Assembly (NCBI RefSeq): GCF_025766255.1
Contig: NW_026516670.1
Span: 62,001-126,000 of the forward strand
Length of the DNA: 64,000 bases
Source: Zychaea mexicana
Taxonomy: Eukaryota > Mucoromycota > Mucoromycetes > Mucorales > Lichtheimiaceae
Direction of reading: 5' to 3'
Shown here: positions 25,544 to 33,984 of the stretch, piece after piece
Position numbering within the stretch: the first letter of the stretch is position 1
Layout of the letters: each line of letters starts with the position of its first letter
Translations under genes and position numbers: made by a program
The notes under the pieces: generated by a model
The model's input: the letters and a program-made list of their open reading frames with translations, nothing else
Told to the model about the DNA's origin: nothing
Databases searched by the model: none

Positions 25544-25800
25544 AAATGCACCCTATCCGCACTCTTTCATAAAGCAATTTCTCAATCCCCCACTCTTTTT
25601 CTCCGTTTCCATTATTTCTACTTCTTCAACGCAACAGAACTATACATTTACCATCACATCACTTCATCAATTCTACTATATTACCGACTCACGCACACCC
25701 ACATGAATCGCCTTTGTTGTTATTTTCTCCTCGTATCTCCCACTTCTATGTACCATATACGCAATCTTGCACAAAAAATACAGTCTTGTTCTTTGGTTTA
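25544..25800. other. NRAMP 3' flank up to the element boundary
   Basis: AT-rich 3' region without a gene. It ends in TA at 25799-25800, directly before the mobile element terminus. Confidence 0.4.
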
Positions 25801-25808
25801 CAGTCATT

Positions 25809-25943
25809 TCAAAAAGTAAAGTCGCTGATTTTGAGTTTGATGTCGTGCAAAAAATCTTCGTGTGCAACAACAAAGTCGCTTGATCCAGCAAGGAAGTCGT
25901 AATGAGCTTCTTTTATTTTTGCCTGTCGCTTAGCAATTGGCAT
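25809..25943 (-). other. Outward-facing 44-codon ORF at left terminus
   Basis: Starts MPIAKRQAKIKEAHYDF and stops 8 bp before the element end. An identical protein is encoded in mirror position (33655-33789, plus strand). The one base difference seen between the copies is synonymous (GAC/GAT for Asp). It may be the last exon of an older gene or chance; no family recognised. Confidence 0.3.
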
Positions 25944-25954
25944 TTTTATTTGGG

Positions 25955-25961
25955 TATAAAA
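25955..25961 (+). promoter_or_regulatory. TATA box in left terminal repeat
   Basis: TATAAAA in a GGG...ACGAG context, about 150 bp inside the element end and ~480 bp before the finger-protein ATG. The same box occurs in mirror position at 33637-33643. Both point toward the element centre. Assignment by consensus only. Confidence 0.45.
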
Positions 25962-26136
25962 ACGAGTGACATCCCCTTATTCTTTTAGTTCTCTCTTTTT
26001 TTTTCTTTCAAGTGACTTCAAAGGCTTTGTCTCCCATTCTGCCAAATGTTTTGTGACCTCCTTGTTCCTCATTCTAACATCGGCAGAATCCTCAAACCAA
26101 CATGTTGACTCAATTTGGGAAGGAAAAAGAAAGTGG

Positions 26137-26388
26137 GAAACTCCTTCCGTTTATGGCAGGAGTTTCCCGTTGTCGTTGGCTTGAGGATCAAAATCTTCGA
26201 TCAGCGTGAAACTCCGTCCGTTTATGGCAGGAGTTTCCCGCTGCCGTTGGCTTGAGGATCAAAATCTTCGATCAGCGTGAAACTCCTTCCGTTTATGGCA
26301 GGAGTTTCCCGTTGTCGTTGGCTTGAGGATCAAAATCTTCGATCAGCGTGAAACTCCGTCCGTTTATGGCAGGAGTTTCCCGCTGCCA
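26137..26388 (+). repeat. 71-bp tandem repeat, 3.5 units (left arm)
   Basis: Units start at 26137, 26208, 26279 and 26350, an exact 71-bp period; the last is partial. Units alternate between two versions (TTCCG/GTTGTCG and GTCCG/GCTGCCG), a higher-order period of 142 bp. Each unit contains a hairpin GGAAACTCC...GGAGTTTCC with a ~14-nt loop. The period is not a multiple of three, so it is unlikely to be coding. Confidence 0.9.
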
Positions 26389-26572
26389 TAACAAAAAAAA
26401 AAGGCCAGGCACCTTTTTCTTTCCTGACTCACAGGATGGAATTCATTGCGCTTGGGGAAACAGATGCACGAGTATGCAATCATTCCGTTTGCTCTACGAG
26501 TCTTGGACCAGCCAACAAGTCTGGTTTCTGTTCGAAGCATAGAAACATCAGCGACCAGCAATGCTCCCATGA

Positions 26573-26941
26573 TGTAAGGTGCGGACAGGAACAAGACAAG
26601 AAGGGACAGAAAGACCGGACGAGAATGTGCTAGGTGCTTTCAGCAAGAACAGGACAAGACAAGAAGGAAACCTGGAGGTAGGAGACCAGATGGTGAGGGA
26701 AGAAACAAGAACAAGGTATAGGATGGAAACAAGATATCTGACTGATGTTTTATTATTCAAAGACTATGGTGTTTATATATCTTTTACTATGGAATTTAAT
26801 AATGCGAATAAACGGAAAGATTGGTATTAGGGTTGTTAATTCGGACGATGATGATGGATGATATTGTTACTTGGGGATTTAATAAGTGATCATCGAGGTT
26901 GAGGGTGATCACTTAGTAGAGGTCGAGGAATGTTCATAACA
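26573..26941 (-). repeat. Solo 3' LTR of the chromovirus
   Basis: 369 bp, beginning TGTTATGAAC and ending CCTTACA on the minus strand (TG...CA ends). It is preceded by the purine tract AGAGGGGAGG just after the pol stop. No second LTR in the window. Confidence 0.8.
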
Positions 26942-28590
26942 TTACCTCCCCTCTTAGGCTCGAGTAACACGAGAGCGGGTCGAACGCCGAGGTGATGGTG
27001 GTGGTCGGATGCTGCATATGAAAGTCACGAACTACGTCAGCGGCGTTCCAAAGATTTGAAGCTGGTTCCCAGGTGTTTTCTGAGGGATCTATGTATCCCT
27101 TCCACGCAACTAGATATTGCAATTGACCCCGACGACGGCGACTGTCAAGTATACTGTCGACTTCGAAATGCTCTTCGCCCTGAACTTCTACAGGAGGCAA
27201 TGGCGCAGGTACACGGTCTTGAATGTCCGGAGTCGCCGGGTTATCGCGAGGCGTTAACAGGGCAACGTGGAACACTGGGTGAACCCGTAGTGCAACAGGC
27301 AAGTTCAACTTGTAGGCATGGGAGCCAACACGCGCAATGATTTTGAATGGGCCCAAGCGAGTATGGTCAAGCTTCGAAGATGGCCTAACAGTCTTGATAT
27401 TTTTGCTAGAGACATAAACGAAGTCGCCTATATTGAAGACTGGTGTGGCTCGATGGTGCGCGTTGTAGAACACGGCTTGCTGTTGCTGGGCGAGGCGAAT
27501 TTCACTTTTCAACGATTCATGAAGTTCTTTCAACTCCTTACAAAAATCTTCGGTAGCACCAGAGAGACCTGAACCCTGGGGCGCTGGCAACAAAGAAAAA
27601 CGTGGGTGGTAACCGTAGGTGGCCTCAAAAGGAGTATGGCGCGTGCTTGACTGGACAGAATTGTTGTAGCTGAATTCGGCAACAGGTAACAAGGAAGACC
27701 AGTCGTCCTGCTGGTAATTGATATACGCGCGAAGATACTGCTCCAATATTGAATTTACTACCTCAGTTTGTCCGTCGGTTTCGGGCCTGAAAGCTGTTGA
27801 CATATTTGACTTGATCTGGAGCAACTCGAGTAATGAACGCCAGAAACGCGACGTGAACAGTGCGCCACGATCCGAGACAATATCATTGGGTAGACCATGC
27901 AAACGGAAAACTTCCGTGACGAAAAGGTGGGCTAATTCGCTGGCCGTAATGGTGTCCTTGCATGGGACGAAGTGCGCCATTTTTGTCAATCGATCAACAA
28001 CAACCCAAATTGCATTGTGACCTGACGAGGATGGCAAACCAACAATGAAGTCCATGCTGATGGAAGACCAGGGACGAGGAGGTACTTGTAAGGGCTTGAG
28101 CTCACCGAGAGGGGCTTGACGGGAGTGCTTCGAGCGTTTGCAGGTGCGACAATTGGAGACGTAACGTTTGACGAATTGACGTAGTCCCGGCCAGAAGAAA
28201 CGCCGAGCCAACAGTTCGCAAGTCTTAGCGATACCGAAGTGGCCTGAGACTGGGTGATCGTGGTGTAGCCGCAACAATTCTAACTTCAACGCATCAACAT
28301 CAGGTACATAGATGCGGTCATCGAGGAACAACAATCCTGAATCATCGTCGAAGCGATACCGGCTCATCTTGACGTGAAGCTGCCTGGGTATGCTGGAAGG
28401 GTGTTGTACGAGGTTCAAGATTCTTGCGGTCTTAGCATCGTCATCGTATTTATCGCGTATTGCTGATATCAGGTCGTCATCAACAGGGCAACTAGAGACA
28501 GCCCCAAGAACGACTTGATCCTCACGAAATATGGATTTTATTGGCTGTTTATCGCTATCGTCCCCCTTCCGGAAGGCCATGTCCGAGCGA
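26573..28590 (-). mobile_element. 5'-truncated chromovirus (Ty3/gypsy) insertion
   Basis: Only the 3' part of an LTR retrotransposon is present: end of pol, polypurine tract and one LTR. One junction is the precise LTR end (TGTAAGG...). The other lies inside pol near the RNase H/integrase boundary, joined to arm sequence at ACTG microhomology. Comparison with the uninterrupted right arm shows only about 2 bp of arm sequence lost and no target duplication. Confidence 0.85.
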
Positions 28591-28601
28591 CTGTATTGCA
28601 A
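26934..28601 (-). pseudogene. Chromovirus integrase with chromodomain (pol fragment)
   Basis: An open frame of 555 codons without protease, reverse transcriptase or most of RNase H. The element-derived part starts near [11 protein letters not shown]. Zinc-binding HHCC ([11 protein letters not shown]...CRTCKRSKH), then the integrase core: Asp in SMDFIVGLP, Asp in [10 protein letters not shown], Glu in [13 protein letters not shown]. The GPY/F-type region is [13 protein letters not shown]. The C-terminal chromodomain contains [18 protein letters not shown] with its aromatic cage residues. The reading frame is unbroken, so the copy is young. Without RT it cannot replicate. Confidence 0.9.
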
Positions 28602-29630
28602 AAATTAGGAAAGACAACAAATCAGGCTTCTGCAAAAATCATAACAACCTCAGCTCCTCCAAAGAATTATCGACCTCAAGTTCACAACCAGGTTCCTCTA
28701 AGTCCATTCCAACAAAGCAATTGATTTGGCCAATGGTTCTGTGCTCTTATTGCAACGTATTGCCAGTGAACGCACTTATGAATGAGAAACGCAAATGCCA
28801 ATCATGCAGCAAAGCCAACAGCAGCAATAAAAACAATTGCAGCAAAAAGCGCCAACGAGATAAATACATGGCATTTTCATTTGCAGATGGATCCAAGCGC
28901 GCTTTCAAAGGCGCGTCATTCATGGACGATCGAGGTAAAAAGAAAAAAAAACACAACACTTTTGAATTATTGAGATTACTGACACCTTCTCTGGGCAATC
29001 ACCAATCTTATCAGTGGACAAAGCAGAAAATGGCGCAAAATTGATGGATTTGATACCCGTTAGAATGCACATACAAAAAGACTTGGCAGCTGCCACCACG
29101 GATCCGTTTGGTTTCTTCACACATTCTTGTATCAATGATATGCACAATGCAGATGTTGTATTTGATACCAAGCAACACCAAGGCACAACTTTGCAGGTCA
29201 CCTTGCAGCTCCCGGAGGAGGAAGAAAGACCGCAGGCCGAATCTCATCAAGATGCGACGTACAGCATCGAGGCAGCATTGAAGCAGGCTGGGTTTAGCAA
29301 ATTGTGCAAGGCAACCGGCCTGCTCGAACAACCGGACGATGAATTATTGGACATGTTGAGCATCGAGTTCCATGAGAAACCACAGTTGCTGGCAGGCATT
29401 GCGGATCTCCTTGTTAATGGGATCATACGCTACAAAAATCTGTTGATCAAGATTTTGACCGTGGAATCTTACTCGCGTCACGCATCTCTAGACATTCATA
29501 ATGAATCGCAAGTATTGGAATCAACGTATCCCATTCAAGGGCGCCTTTTTTGTGGAACAGTGCCCGCTGCAGATGGCAGAGGTTTGAAACAAAAATTGAT
29601 CGTTGCTTCCAAGACAATGAATGCTCTCTG

Positions 29631-29667
29631 CACTTGCTCCGTAACGCTAGGCAGCACACCCCAAGTC
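29631..29667. other. Centre of the palindrome (37 bp)
   Basis: Non-palindromic spacer between the last bases of the arms (...GCTCTCTG and CAGAGAGC...). It contains CACTTG near one side and CAAGTC near the other. The open frame of the arm gene reads straight through it into the antisense of the opposite arm. Confidence 0.75.
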
Positions 29668-30399
29668 CAGAGAGCATTCATTGTCTTGGAAGCAACGATC
29701 AATTTTTGTTTCAAACCTCTGCCATCTGCAGCGGGCACTGTTCCACAAAAAAGGCGCCCTTGAATGGGATACGTTGATTCCAATACTTGCGATTCATTAT
29801 GAATGTCTAGAGATGCGTGACGCGAGTAAGATTCCACGGTCAAAATCTTGATCAACAGATTTTTGTAGCGTATGATCCCATTAACAAGGAGATCCGCAAT
29901 GCCTGCCAGCAACTGTGGTTTCTCATGGAACTCGATGCTCAACATGTCCAATAATTCATCGTCCGGTTGTTCGAGCAGGCCGGTTGCCTTGCACAATTTG
30001 CTAAACCCAGCCTGCTTCAATGCTGCCTCGATGCTGTACGTCGCATCTTGATGAGATTCGGCCTGCGGTCTTTCTTCCTCCTCCGGGAGCTGCAAGGTGA
30101 CCTGCAAAGTTGTGCCTTGGTGTTGCTTGGTATCAAATACAACATCTGCATTGTGCATATCATTGATACAAGAATGTGTGAAGAAACCAAACGGATCCGT
30201 GGTGGCAGCTGCCAAGTCTTTTTGTATGTGCATTCTAACGGGTATCAAATCCATCAATTTTGCGCCATTTTCTGCTTTGTGGATATATTCATAGCCATAA
30301 GTAATAATAATTTTATAAATAAGGAGACTATTTATAAATTTATAATTACTATTGTATTTCCAAAAAAAAATTGAATTTCTATTTATTAAAAAAGTAATA

Positions 30400-31925
30400 A
30401 TGATGGATGTTAATAGCTTGATAACAAATGAGATTAATTCAATTCTTATAAATCATTGGATTTTTTTGAATAATAATTGGCCTGTTATTAATCATAAATA
30501 TAAACATAGAACTGAGTTGAAACATATAAATTATATAGACATTATTAAAAAAAATTAGTAGAAAAATTAGGATATATTGCTGTATTTTTCTTTTTAATAG
30601 TATTATATGGCAATAAGGAGTACCCTGGACCTTACTATGAAATTGAAAAAGGTTTATTCTTATTATACCATTTAGTTTCAGGTATTGCTGGGAAAGAAGA
30701 AATAGATAAATATCTTCCACAAAGTACATTTCATCGCTTTTATAAAAAATTTTAGATGGATGAAGATAATTATAAAAGGTTAAACAAAATTGTTAATGAG
30801 TCATTAGATACTATGTTTTCTAATATAAGATTAAGAATATTATCAGTACATAAATACAATCCTGATTTGTTTAAACATATTACTTTAATTCTTGACGGTC
30901 ACGATTCAAGAATCAATTATGTGGATACAGAAATTAAGCATAGCAGATTATATTCTTACAAATTTAAAAAAAATAGATTAAGAACACAAATCGTTAGTGA
31001 TATTAATGATATGATACTTTTTATATCCAAAAGTAATTTTTGTTCAGATAGTTCAGATGGTTCAATGTTTCTTAATATGAAATTATATCACAAAATGGAT
31101 GATAAAGATACTATTGCTATCGACGGCGGATATACTTTGTTTGTAAACCAATTTGTAGATTTAGCTGTTGAAAAAGGTTATACATATAGTGATTCTAATT
31201 TTGTTTATCCTATTAGAAAAAATGTTAATGAAAGTTTATCTATAACTGAAGACCATTTTAATAAGACCTTTGGAAGTTTTCATTCAAAAATAGAAAATCA
31301 GTTTTCAGAGTTAGGTAATAAATTTTATAGATTTAATAATAATAAATCAGTTGTTAGAATGGATAATATAAAGTTTTACAATTTACAATTTAAGGTTGCC
31401 TGTTTATTAAGAAATATTAGTATTTTTGTAGATAAATTTAATGTACCAATTTTACCCCATCATAAACTATGGGAATCAAATGAATTTGAATTTCCTGTTG
31501 AAAATAAATTATTAGATATTGTAGTAAGTAATGATAAGCAAAATAAAGATAAATTAGATAAAATGCTTGAATTACAAATGAATTTCTTAAATATGAATGT
31601 ATCAGAAATTAATATGGTTATTGATGAGTTTTCAGATGAAGATTCTAATAATCATAAAGATATTTCAAGTGAAGGTGAAGATGTCCCTAAATTCAATGAA
31701 AGGTCTAAAAAAAGAAAATAAAAAGGAAAACAAAAGGAAAAAAATTATAAATCCTATCAAATTGAAGCTGTTATTGACCATAAACTTAAAGATGGTTTAT
31801 ATACATTTTTAGTTAAATGGAAAGATTATTCCGATAGTGATAATAGTTGGCTAACAATAGAAAAATTTAATGAAAAGGAAATGTTAAATGAATATATTAA
31901 AAATAATAATCTTGGTGCATTATAA
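30400..31925 (+). pseudogene. DDE_Tnp_4-like transposase plus chromodomain, broken
   Basis: Three blocks can be seen. The N-terminal block (about 30400-30558) ends after a run of eight A's, where the frame shifts. The next block contains KEYPGPYYEIEKGLFLLYHL and STFHRFYKKF and ends in TAG at 30753-30755. The main ORF (30756-31721, 321 aa) carries candidate catalytic acids in LILDGHDS, AIDGGYTLF and IENQFSELG, as in IS5/DDE_Tnp_4 transposases. TAA at 31719-31721 is followed in the same frame by a chromodomain (FLVKWKDYSDSDNSWLTIEKF) to 31925. So one frameshift and two in-frame stops separate the parts. Decay of a single protein is the simplest reading. Confidence 0.8.
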
Positions 31926-32003
31926 ATAATTCGATAATCTCCCCCTCCTATATATAAATGAATATCTATATAGGATATATTGTTGTATGTATAACGTCTG
32001 CAG

Positions 32004-32507
32004 TTAATGTAATAAGCTTTTTATAAAATATTCCAAGTTAAGGTTGCCGCTATTACATACATGTATTGTTTTTGATTTTCTTTTTTTTACTTTTTTTAAA
32101 TCTTTTTTAGGATTACCATTATCAATAGATATGCAAGGTGGTAAAACAATTTTTTTATTTTTTTTCTTGGGCACATGAATTTTACTATGACTAGAACATA
32201 GATAATCAAGCTTGTTATCTCCAATATTAGTTCTAATCTTCCTGTGGCACATGTGACCTTCTTTCTTACCTCTTGTATGTATGAAAGTGCAAACATTTTC
32301 ACTACTATTTAAGTACCAAAATTGTTTATCTTTAACTTTATTCATTTTTTCATTTATTTTATTTTCCATAATCTTCATCTTACTTTCTTTTTTTTCTACC
32401 AACACTTCATCATCAAAATATTCCTTCATAACCTCTTCCATAAGATTTCTTATACTTTTAGTTAAGGATTTAGTAGATACAAGAATTTCTGTGTTTAAAA
32501 TTACCAT
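32004..32507 (-). CDS. Zinc-binding accessory ORF of the DDE transposon
   Basis: 167 residues, family not named. The N-terminal ~75 residues are Lys/Glu-rich and probably helical. The core has Cys-X13-Cys-X16-Cys-X2-His (CTFIHTRGKKEGHMC...LCSSH), a likely single zinc site. A Lys-rich tail follows. The very AT-rich codon use matches the transposase and differs from host genes. It is convergent with the transposase, with about 80 bp between stops. A DNA-binding partner of the transposase is plausible but not shown. Confidence 0.55.
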   Translation of the reverse strand: MVILNTEILVSTKSLTKSIRNLMEEVMKEYFDDEVLVEKKESKMKIMENKINEKMNKVKDKQFWYLNSSENVCTFIHTRGKKEGHMCHRKIRTNIGDNKLDYLCSSHSKIHVPKKKNKKIVLPPCISIDNGNPKKDLKKVKKRKSKTIHVCNSGNLNLEYFIKSLLH

Positions 32508-33288
32508 TTTAAAAATTTATTGAAATGGTAAGAGAACTTAGATGTTTTTATTTTTTTAATTAAAAAAAATCCTTTTTTTTTTTACTTAAAAGATTTTTAA
32601 TTACCCATGAGTAATTGATTACTAATATTTTTATTAAATACTTATAATTATAAGTATACCGCCTTTGTCCACTGATAAGATTGGTGATTGCCCAGAGAAG
32701 GTGTCAGTAATCTCAATAATTCAAAAGTGTTGTGTTTTTTTTTCTTTTTACCTCGATCGTCCATGAATGACGCGCCTTTGAAAGCGCGCTTGGATCCATC
32801 TACAAATGAAAATGCCATGTATTTATCTCGTTGGCGCTTTTTGCTGCAATTGTTTTTATTGCTGCTGTTGGCTTTGCTGCATGATTGGCATTTGCGTTTC
32901 TCATTCATAAGTGCGTTCACTGGCAATACGTTGCAATAAGAGCACAGAACCATTGGCCAAATCAATTGCTTTGTTGGAATGGACTTAGAGGAACCTGGTT
33001 GTGAACTTGAGGTCGATAATTCTTTGGAGGAGCTGAGGTTGTTATGATTTTTGCAGAAGCCTGATTTGTTGTCTTTCCTAATTTTTGCAATACAGTTGTC
33101 ATGGGAGCATTGCTGGTCGCTGATGTTTCTATGCTTCGAACAGAGACCAGACTTGTTGGCTGGTCCAAGACTCGTAGAGCAAACGGAATGATTGCATACT
33201 CGTGCATCTGTTTCCCCAAGCGTAATGAATTCCATCCTGTGAGTCAGGAAAGAAAAAGGTGCCTGGCCTTTTTTTTTTGTTATGGCAG

Positions 33289-33467
33289 CGGGAAACTCCT
33301 GCCATAAACGGACGGAGTTTCACGCTGATCGAAGATTTTGATCCTCAAGCCAACGACAACGGGAAACTCCTGCCATAAACGGAAGGAGTTTCACGCTGAT
33401 CGAAGATTTTGATCCTCAAGCCAACGACAATGGGAAACTCCTGCCATAAACGGAAGGAGTTTCCCAC
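33289..33467 (-). repeat. 71-bp tandem repeat, 2.5 units (right arm)
   Basis: Inverted counterpart of the left array, with period 71 (matching points 33321, 33392, 33463). One unit fewer than the left array. The same hairpin is present in each unit. Confidence 0.9.
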
Positions 33468-33636
33468 TTTCTTTTTCCTTCCCAAATTGAGTCAATGTTG
33501 GTTTGAGGATTCTGCCGATGTTAGAATGAGGAACAAGGAGGTCACAAAACATTTGGCAGAATGGGAGACAAAGCCTTTGAAGTCACTTGAAAGAAAAAAA
33601 AAGAGAGAACTAAAAGAATAAGGGGATGTCACTCGT

Positions 33637-33643
33637 TTTTATA
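33637..33643 (-). promoter_or_regulatory. TATA box in right terminal repeat
   Basis: Mirror copy of the left-arm TATA box, directed inward on the minus strand. If both are used, transcription converges on the palindrome centre. Confidence 0.45.
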
Positions 33644-33654
33644 CCCAAATAAAA

Positions 33655-33789
33655 ATGCCAATTGCTAAGCGACAGGCAAAAATAAAAGAAGCTCATTACG
33701 ACTTCCTTGCTGGATCAAGCGACTTTGTTGTTGCACACGAAGATTTTTTGCACGATATCAAACTCAAAATCAGCGACTTTACTTTTTGA
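33655..33789 (+). other. Outward-facing 44-codon ORF at right terminus
   Basis: Mirror copy of the ORF at 25809-25943, with the same predicted protein and one silent difference. Ends 8 bp inside the element terminus. Confidence 0.3.
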
Positions 33790-33797
33790 AATGACTG

Positions 33798-33984
33798 TAC
33801 TTGTATTACCACTTGAGCATGGGTCTGGTAAGGCCACTAACGTCCTAACGTGTTTCCCATTGTATACCCGTCCGTATTTTACGTACAAACAATAGTGTGG
33901 CATTGCTGCAACGTTTACAGCATTATTTATAGATAAAGCAGCATAGCGAACTATTGATGATATGGTACTGTTACATATACTAAT
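33798..33984. other. TTLL12-like 3' flank, right of the element
   Basis: Starts with the TA flank of the palindromic element (33798-33799). The rest is AT-rich 3' sequence of the TTLL12-like gene. The element lies within 200 bp of that gene's stop. Confidence 0.4.

Follow-up and report, generated by a model that had tools for sequence, protein, structure and literature searches.

A near-perfect palindrome lies in a 64,000-nucleotide stretch of the Zychaea mexicana genome (contig NW_026516670.1, positions 62,001 to 126,000; hereafter the window), and the question is how this structure arose. Including its TA flanks (25799-25800 and 33798-33799), the element spans 25799-33799. In this study, we found that it is very probably, at about 85%, a non-autonomous element derived by fold-back from a Tc1/mariner (DD34E) family. 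The Tc1/mariner kind itself is known. What is new is a derivative from an unusual, cargo-bearing and often two-transposase lineage that was made a full palindrome by fold-back.

The arms, 25799-29630 and 33799-29668, are reverse-complement mirrors that differ at five substitutions and a 2-bp indel; one 71-bp unit and two nested insertions account for the remaining differences. The mirrored non-repeat blocks measure 336, 190, 434, and 613 bases in the alignment, 6 bases being common to the last two, and contain four substitutions (25842, 26448, 26526, and 28884) and the 2-bp indel at 26103. The remaining substitution lies among 175 aligned bases of 71-bp tandem repeats, which number 3.5 copies in the left arm (26137-26382, forward strand) vs 2.5 in the right (33289-33463, reverse strand), with one extra unit on the left. 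Such arm length and identity are far beyond chance. Mirror homology ends at TA on both sides, and no mirror homology was found when the flanks outside TA were compared with each other. A first-pass annotation, made from the letters alone, had reported palindromic arms at 25801-33797 and inverted outer ends bordered by TA, and the arm alignment reproduced both at essentially those positions. Its account of the arm differences was right about the two insertions and the repeat unit, and lacked the five substitutions and the 2-bp indel. These results confirm the observation of a near-perfect palindrome.

Each arm was interrupted by a different insertion. The left arm contains an incomplete Ty3-type integrase with a chromodomain (26573-28589, reverse strand; 2017 bp, 48% GC). 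It begins with TG at one side only, 2 bp of the target were replaced, and there is no clean duplication; therefore, this is an incomplete or rearranged insertion. The right arm contains an AT-rich element with a DDE_Tnp_4 transposase (30281-32662, forward strand; 2382 bp, 23% GC), which has CTTTGT at both edges as a 6-bp duplication (30275-30280 and 32663-32668). These insertions bear on whether the palindrome is real. An arm may be falsely joined to its own reverse complement in assembly, or a chimera may form by amplification in the library. Chimeras can carry short microhomology at the joint, as is present here, and the start of contig C97 falls within a long-arm element, which suggests that the assembly may break at such structures. 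However, each arm has its own insertion, and the flanks differ. A search of the 50.3-Mb genome (305 contigs) for a second copy of the cargo-bearing part gave three matches, all inside the window, leaving no other copy in the assembly to provide the second insertion site. Long mirrored arms were also found in other elements on other contigs. A chimera is thus very unlikely, and the earlier claim that the palindrome predates both insertions and is unlikely to be a simple assembly artefact holds, given the different insertion in each arm and the differing flanks.

The relationship of the element to other sequences of its genome was investigated with the first 774 bases of the arm, which gave at least 43 matches (40 of 55 candidates scored). 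These were confined to bases 1-206, apart from the window itself, a relative on contig C201, and one weak match on C242. The left terminal region (25799-26008, forward strand), which is common to the family members, is 93% identical to the C201 relative (L051) over 211 aligned columns, and the right terminal region (33590-33799, reverse strand) is its mirror. Eleven pairs of inverted ends, 3.7-15.6 kb apart, were found in the genome. The family set comprised 20 stretches with 11 two-ended elements and 7 single ends, which makes 31 ends with the window. The TACAGTCATTTCA ends of the window element recur in the relatives. TACAGT starts 29 of the 31 ends, where the TA is partly by construction because the query began with TA. 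A loose genome-wide pattern, CAGT-N16-ACTG, was uninformative (680 matches per strand vs 728 in the control).

The first-pass annotation had proposed other copies of the ends and uninterrupted TA sites as checks, and both were found, the latter for one relative, L046. This family member is inserted into a Rep-type gene (L046:1-356) and lies within another element. It has TA on each side, and the three related uninterrupted sites in L047, L048, and L049 read CA-TA-TG, which indicates a precise TA duplication; the right end of L046 itself is degenerate. The window element is likewise bordered by TA on both sides, and the empty-site comparison covers L046.

The transposase of the relatives has DDE_3 and helix-turn-helix domains (Pfam), and 34 residues separate the second D from the E, as in DD34E; this spacing was read by eye in L038 and P0010. 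Its best match of solved structure was Sleeping Beauty, a weak sequence match (E-value 4.9e-5). Among the best 120 of 634 database matches, the named relatives were Mucorales and came from Rhizopus, Rhizomucor, Mucor, Absidia, and Parasitella. A scan of IMG/VR gave two pattern matches and no relative of the transposase, and the fungal search covered only the window's own genome. By its ends and these relatives, the window element belongs to a Tc1/mariner (DD34E) family present in the same genome, and it is non-autonomous.

Since the window element carries no transposase gene, it was compared with L051, its closest relative at the end, in which the end, a decayed transposase, and the trailing sequence are continuous. 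The window lacks the stretches matching approximately 203-1444 and 1490-1737 of L051. Between them, a 45-bp piece from the 3' coding end of the transposase is left (26010-26054, forward strand), identical to L051 and corresponding to bases 1183-1225 in the 1251-base transposase of L038, with a mirror copy at 33544-33588 on the reverse strand. The family DNA shared by the window is thereby limited to the terminal region, these 45 bp, and approximately 40 bp of trailing sequence. The absence of a transposase is explained by deletion of the L051-equivalent stretches around the remnant, and the comparison indicates that the element arose by deletion within a family that carries a transposase. The earlier statement that no Tc1 transposase is recognisable was correct in that no gene is present and missed the remnant in both arms; the view that the element is unconnected with a Tc1 transposase was not borne out.

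Most of what the palindrome duplicates is a cargo gene. The left copy starts at 26436, is split by the Ty3-type insert, and shares its last base with relatives at 29667 (26436-29667, forward strand); it has a likely intron at 28935-29014, with splice sites read by eye. The inverted copy (29668-33235, reverse strand) is split by the AT-rich insert. The protein has CxxxxC...CxxH and CxxC motifs (by eye) followed by a long C-terminal part, and a Pfam search of both pieces gave nothing above the cut-off. Relatives were found in two protein searches (9 matches in one; 13 rows including the query in the other), and the named ones among the matches listed are Mucorales, from Rhizopus, Mucor, Phycomyces, Syncephalastrum, Dichotomocladium, and Gongronella. 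Further relatives at approximately 30% identity are encoded in the same genome. These comparisons indicate that the cargo is the opening portion of a zinc-finger gene of Mucorales, truncated where the fold-back occurred. It had been described as two inverted copies of an unknown gene; the two copies are there, and the gene is a truncated one with relatives across Mucorales. Structure prediction for the cargo protein P0130 (alignment of 12 sequences) gave a mean pLDDT (predicted local distance difference test score) of 37.9 and was not used.

The truncation point coincides with the centre of the palindrome. The left cargo copy continues through the arm and the 37-nt spacer LKQKLIVASKTMNALCTCSVTLGSTPQV to base 29667, where it parts from its relatives; P0130, P0005, and P0001 continue with SIGPG or SIDPD past the matching point. 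The inverted copy begins at 29668, and base 29668 is the complement of 29630. The fold-back centre (29631-29667, forward strand) has a 5-bp inverted repeat, ACTTG (29632-29636) and CAAGT (29662-29666), both within the exon, with a 25-nt loop and one C:C mismatch. At least five of the six inner pairs were formed in 63 of 20,000 shuffled 37-nt spacers. A 5-bp inverted repeat with a 25-nt loop at the joint is what fold-back priming predicts. In a yeast study, a 5-bp inverted repeat with a 35-bp spacer was central in two of three wild-type inverted duplications (PMC10622511). The window centre resembles these duplications in that a 5-bp inverted repeat encloses a loop some tens of bases long, and differs from them in that its mirror stops at a transposon end.

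Another possibility is that two separate elements lie head to head, or that two complete elements form a composite. Inverted copies with terminal repeats outside would fit this. However, no inner terminal repeat could be read at the palindrome centre, and the joint falls within an exon of one gene, at the 5-bp inverted repeat. A composite transposon would have terminal repeats at the inner arm edges too. When inner terminal repeats were sought in nine whole relatives (L038-L046, E-value <= 1e-3), matches occurred at the two outer ends only. A union of two elements is therefore extremely improbable. Both this explanation and the chimera were judged unlikely on the insertion, flank, and centre evidence.

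We propose that the fold-back derivative formed in the following steps. First, as the L051 comparison shows, a relative carrying, in this order, an end, a transposase, trailing sequence, and cargo lost nearly the whole transposase, keeping 45 bp. Second, a break or stalled synthesis would have occurred in the cargo gene, and the 3' end would have folded back by CAAGT:ACTTG pairing over the 25-nt loop; the scar is seen at the joint. The folded 3' end would then have copied everything back to the left end. Third, with the same terminal repeat at both ends, the palindrome may have been moved as a unit by the transposase of its relatives, or the synthesis may have been caught by the old right end. 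Either a later move or such a capture would account for a right flank that does not mirror the left and for a mirror that ends at TA. Finally, the Ty3-type fragment and the AT-rich DDE_Tnp_4 element landed later in different arms. As the window copy keeps the joint inside a coding exon, the priming site can still be read. Several points weigh against this proposal. The C:C mismatch beside the 5-bp repeat is uncorrected, unlike the mismatches of an imperfect repeat, which were corrected according to the same yeast report (PMC10622511), and a 5-bp inverted repeat by itself is modest evidence. The transposase deletion is drawn from a single decayed relative, L051, and the stretch of L051 examined shows no cargo gene of its own. 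The palindrome also has a single known copy in the genome, so its own mobility is putative.

The element was compared with known systems. The CAGT-type ends, the TA duplication, and the DDE transposase with a helix-turn-helix in the relatives are like those of Tc1/mariner (IS630-Tc1-mariner, DD34E) elements. Members of this group are described as generally 1.3-2.4 kb with a single transposase ORF (open reading frame) (PMC4188875), whereas the elements here measure 3.7-15.6 kb between their outer ends and often hold cargo and two transposase copies that face each other. In Drosophila, Galileo and other Foldback-like elements have been described with inverted ends of, for example, 1575 and 1608 bp at 97.5% identity and with foreign pieces in both ends (PMC4168063). 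These elements and those found here are alike in their kilobase-long inverted ends and in the incorporation of foreign pieces into both. However, the Galileo transposase is of the P superfamily, and that of the relatives here is DDE_3 (Tc1-like). The Galileo transposase sits between its inverted ends, outside them.

The inward TATA boxes noted by the first-pass annotation in both ends were recovered at 25955 and at the mirror position, which ends at 33643, within the family promoter region. A simple TATA pattern 146-184 bases from the end was present in 19 of the 31 ends and absent in 12. An insertion now separates each promoter from the centre, and 613 bp of uninterrupted inverted repeat persist on each side of the centre. 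The genome encodes RNA interference (RNAi) protein domains above the cut-off, namely Piwi (22 matches), RNA-dependent RNA polymerase (17 matches in 5 places), and Dicer-dimer (1 match). In Mucor, inverted-repeat transgenes were reported to silence through small interfering RNA (siRNA), transposon-derived small RNAs were detected (PMC3720535), and RNAi is described as able to drive epimutation. The palindrome may plausibly produce siRNA, and in Mucor natural inverted repeats are possible sources of double-stranded RNA.

A related question is whether the palindrome acts as a trans-silencing locus of the Mu killer type, whose hairpin RNA silences the family. This concerns its effect and is compatible with a fold-back origin. 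Mu killer of maize is described as part of a transposon duplicated in inverted orientation, with the terminal repeat present twice (PMC3440606), and in these two features the window element is like it. The inward-facing family promoters, the Argonaute (Piwi), RNA-dependent RNA polymerase, and Dicer-dimer domains of the genome, and the Mucor transgene silencing would favour such a role. However, Mu killer, as presented there, duplicates part of the mudrA transposase gene, whereas the window palindrome duplicates cargo and, rather than a good part of a transposase gene, only 45 bp of it. The overlap with the family is just the terminal region, those 45 bp, and the trailing sequence, the genome search gave no further DNA copy of the cargo part that could be silenced, and both arms are now interrupted. 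Such a role is therefore unlikely.

The fold-back derivative belongs to a family with unusual organisation. Including the window, 7 of 12 two-ended elements carry a transposase in both inverted arms (C68, C52, C298, C94, C305, C57, and C295), many copies having broken frames. Four have a single transposase (C297, C179, C14, and C247), and the window has remnants only. The inverted arms were 1.5-2.3 kb in 7 of the 11 two-ended relatives. In six elements with alignable arms, arm identity in the transposase region was 96.6-99.9%, and that of C305 was 99.7% over 1660 bp. The broader transposase family gave 108 matches, which merged into at least 93 copies (100 of 501 candidates scored); neighbours among them within 10 kb were convergent in 18 cases, divergent in 2, and tandem in 1, so that 18 of 21 face each other. 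Another pair, on C14, belongs to a subfamily with 57% protein identity; its arms start with TACAG and match over at least 1576 bp at 99.7%. A literature search by titles and abstracts with partial subscription coverage found no report of a Tc1/mariner element with a transposase gene in each arm, which is weak evidence of novelty.

In a tree of the transposases, arms of the same element were sisters in all six two-arm elements (support 96-100). When rooted with the C14 pair, the single-transposase clade was nested in the others, with backbone support of just 29-89. C68 and C52 have a common 1.34-kb loop (96% identity), but 27 of 27 informative sites in their transposase region group the arms within each element; therefore, the arms were homogenised after the two elements parted. 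This result concerns this one pair, in which conversion or recopying would have acted. The wider family shows a process related to the fold-back, in that the arms of an element are kept alike, probably through gene conversion or because they are recopied when gaps are repaired. We tentatively suggest, as a rather doubtful generalisation, that Mucorales may hold a Tc1/mariner lineage whose normal form is palindromic. It would have facing transposases in kilobase-long inverted ends with cargo between them, with fold-back or conversion recopying the arms during transposition-linked repair; facing transcription would act as a double-stranded RNA brake, and full palindromes like that of the window would be the end product. 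A lineage whose homogenised inverted ends each hold the transposase, and whose cargo includes zinc-finger and other genes, widens the Tc1/mariner repertoire and shows how inverted duplications arise and spread.

Cargo genes also recur among these elements. In Rhizopus microsporus, a relative of the window cargo gene (RMATCC62417_06073, P0001) and a family transposase (RMATCC62417_06068, P0076) have close locus numbers and lie on contigs of equal length. The R. delemar protein P0133 joins a transposase N-terminus to the cargo gene, and L044 bears a related gene between its arms. Therefore, the zinc-finger gene looks like a recurrent cargo of this lineage. A second cargo family recurs in L038, L039, L046, and L054 and has more weakly matching relatives in L047 and L049; others recur in L042/L043 and in L040/L041/L045/L053. 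Pfam searches of the cargo frames gave weak C2H2 zinc-finger matches below the cut-off in L038 and no match in L042, L054, L049, and L040.

Tandem repeats of varied unit length were observed close to the inner arm edge, immediately inside the transposase gene, in L038, L039, L040, L046, L047, L048, L049, L050, and L052. In L052 (1-1479 and 2772-3952), contig C97 begins within a long-arm element, and its first bases are the end of a second, inverted transposase; this is likely an assembly break in such a structure. The transposase of the right-arm insert had at least 125 protein matches in the genome (124 of 586 candidates scored). AT-rich elements were also seen at L047:4476-8021, L049:7652-10000, L050:2-1240, and L054:6330-8700, in which a DDE_Tnp_4/chromodomain transposase adjoins a protein that weakly matches geminivirus Rep-type families (PF00799 and PF02407, both below the cut-off). 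The right-arm insert of the window is a relative of the transposase part of these elements.

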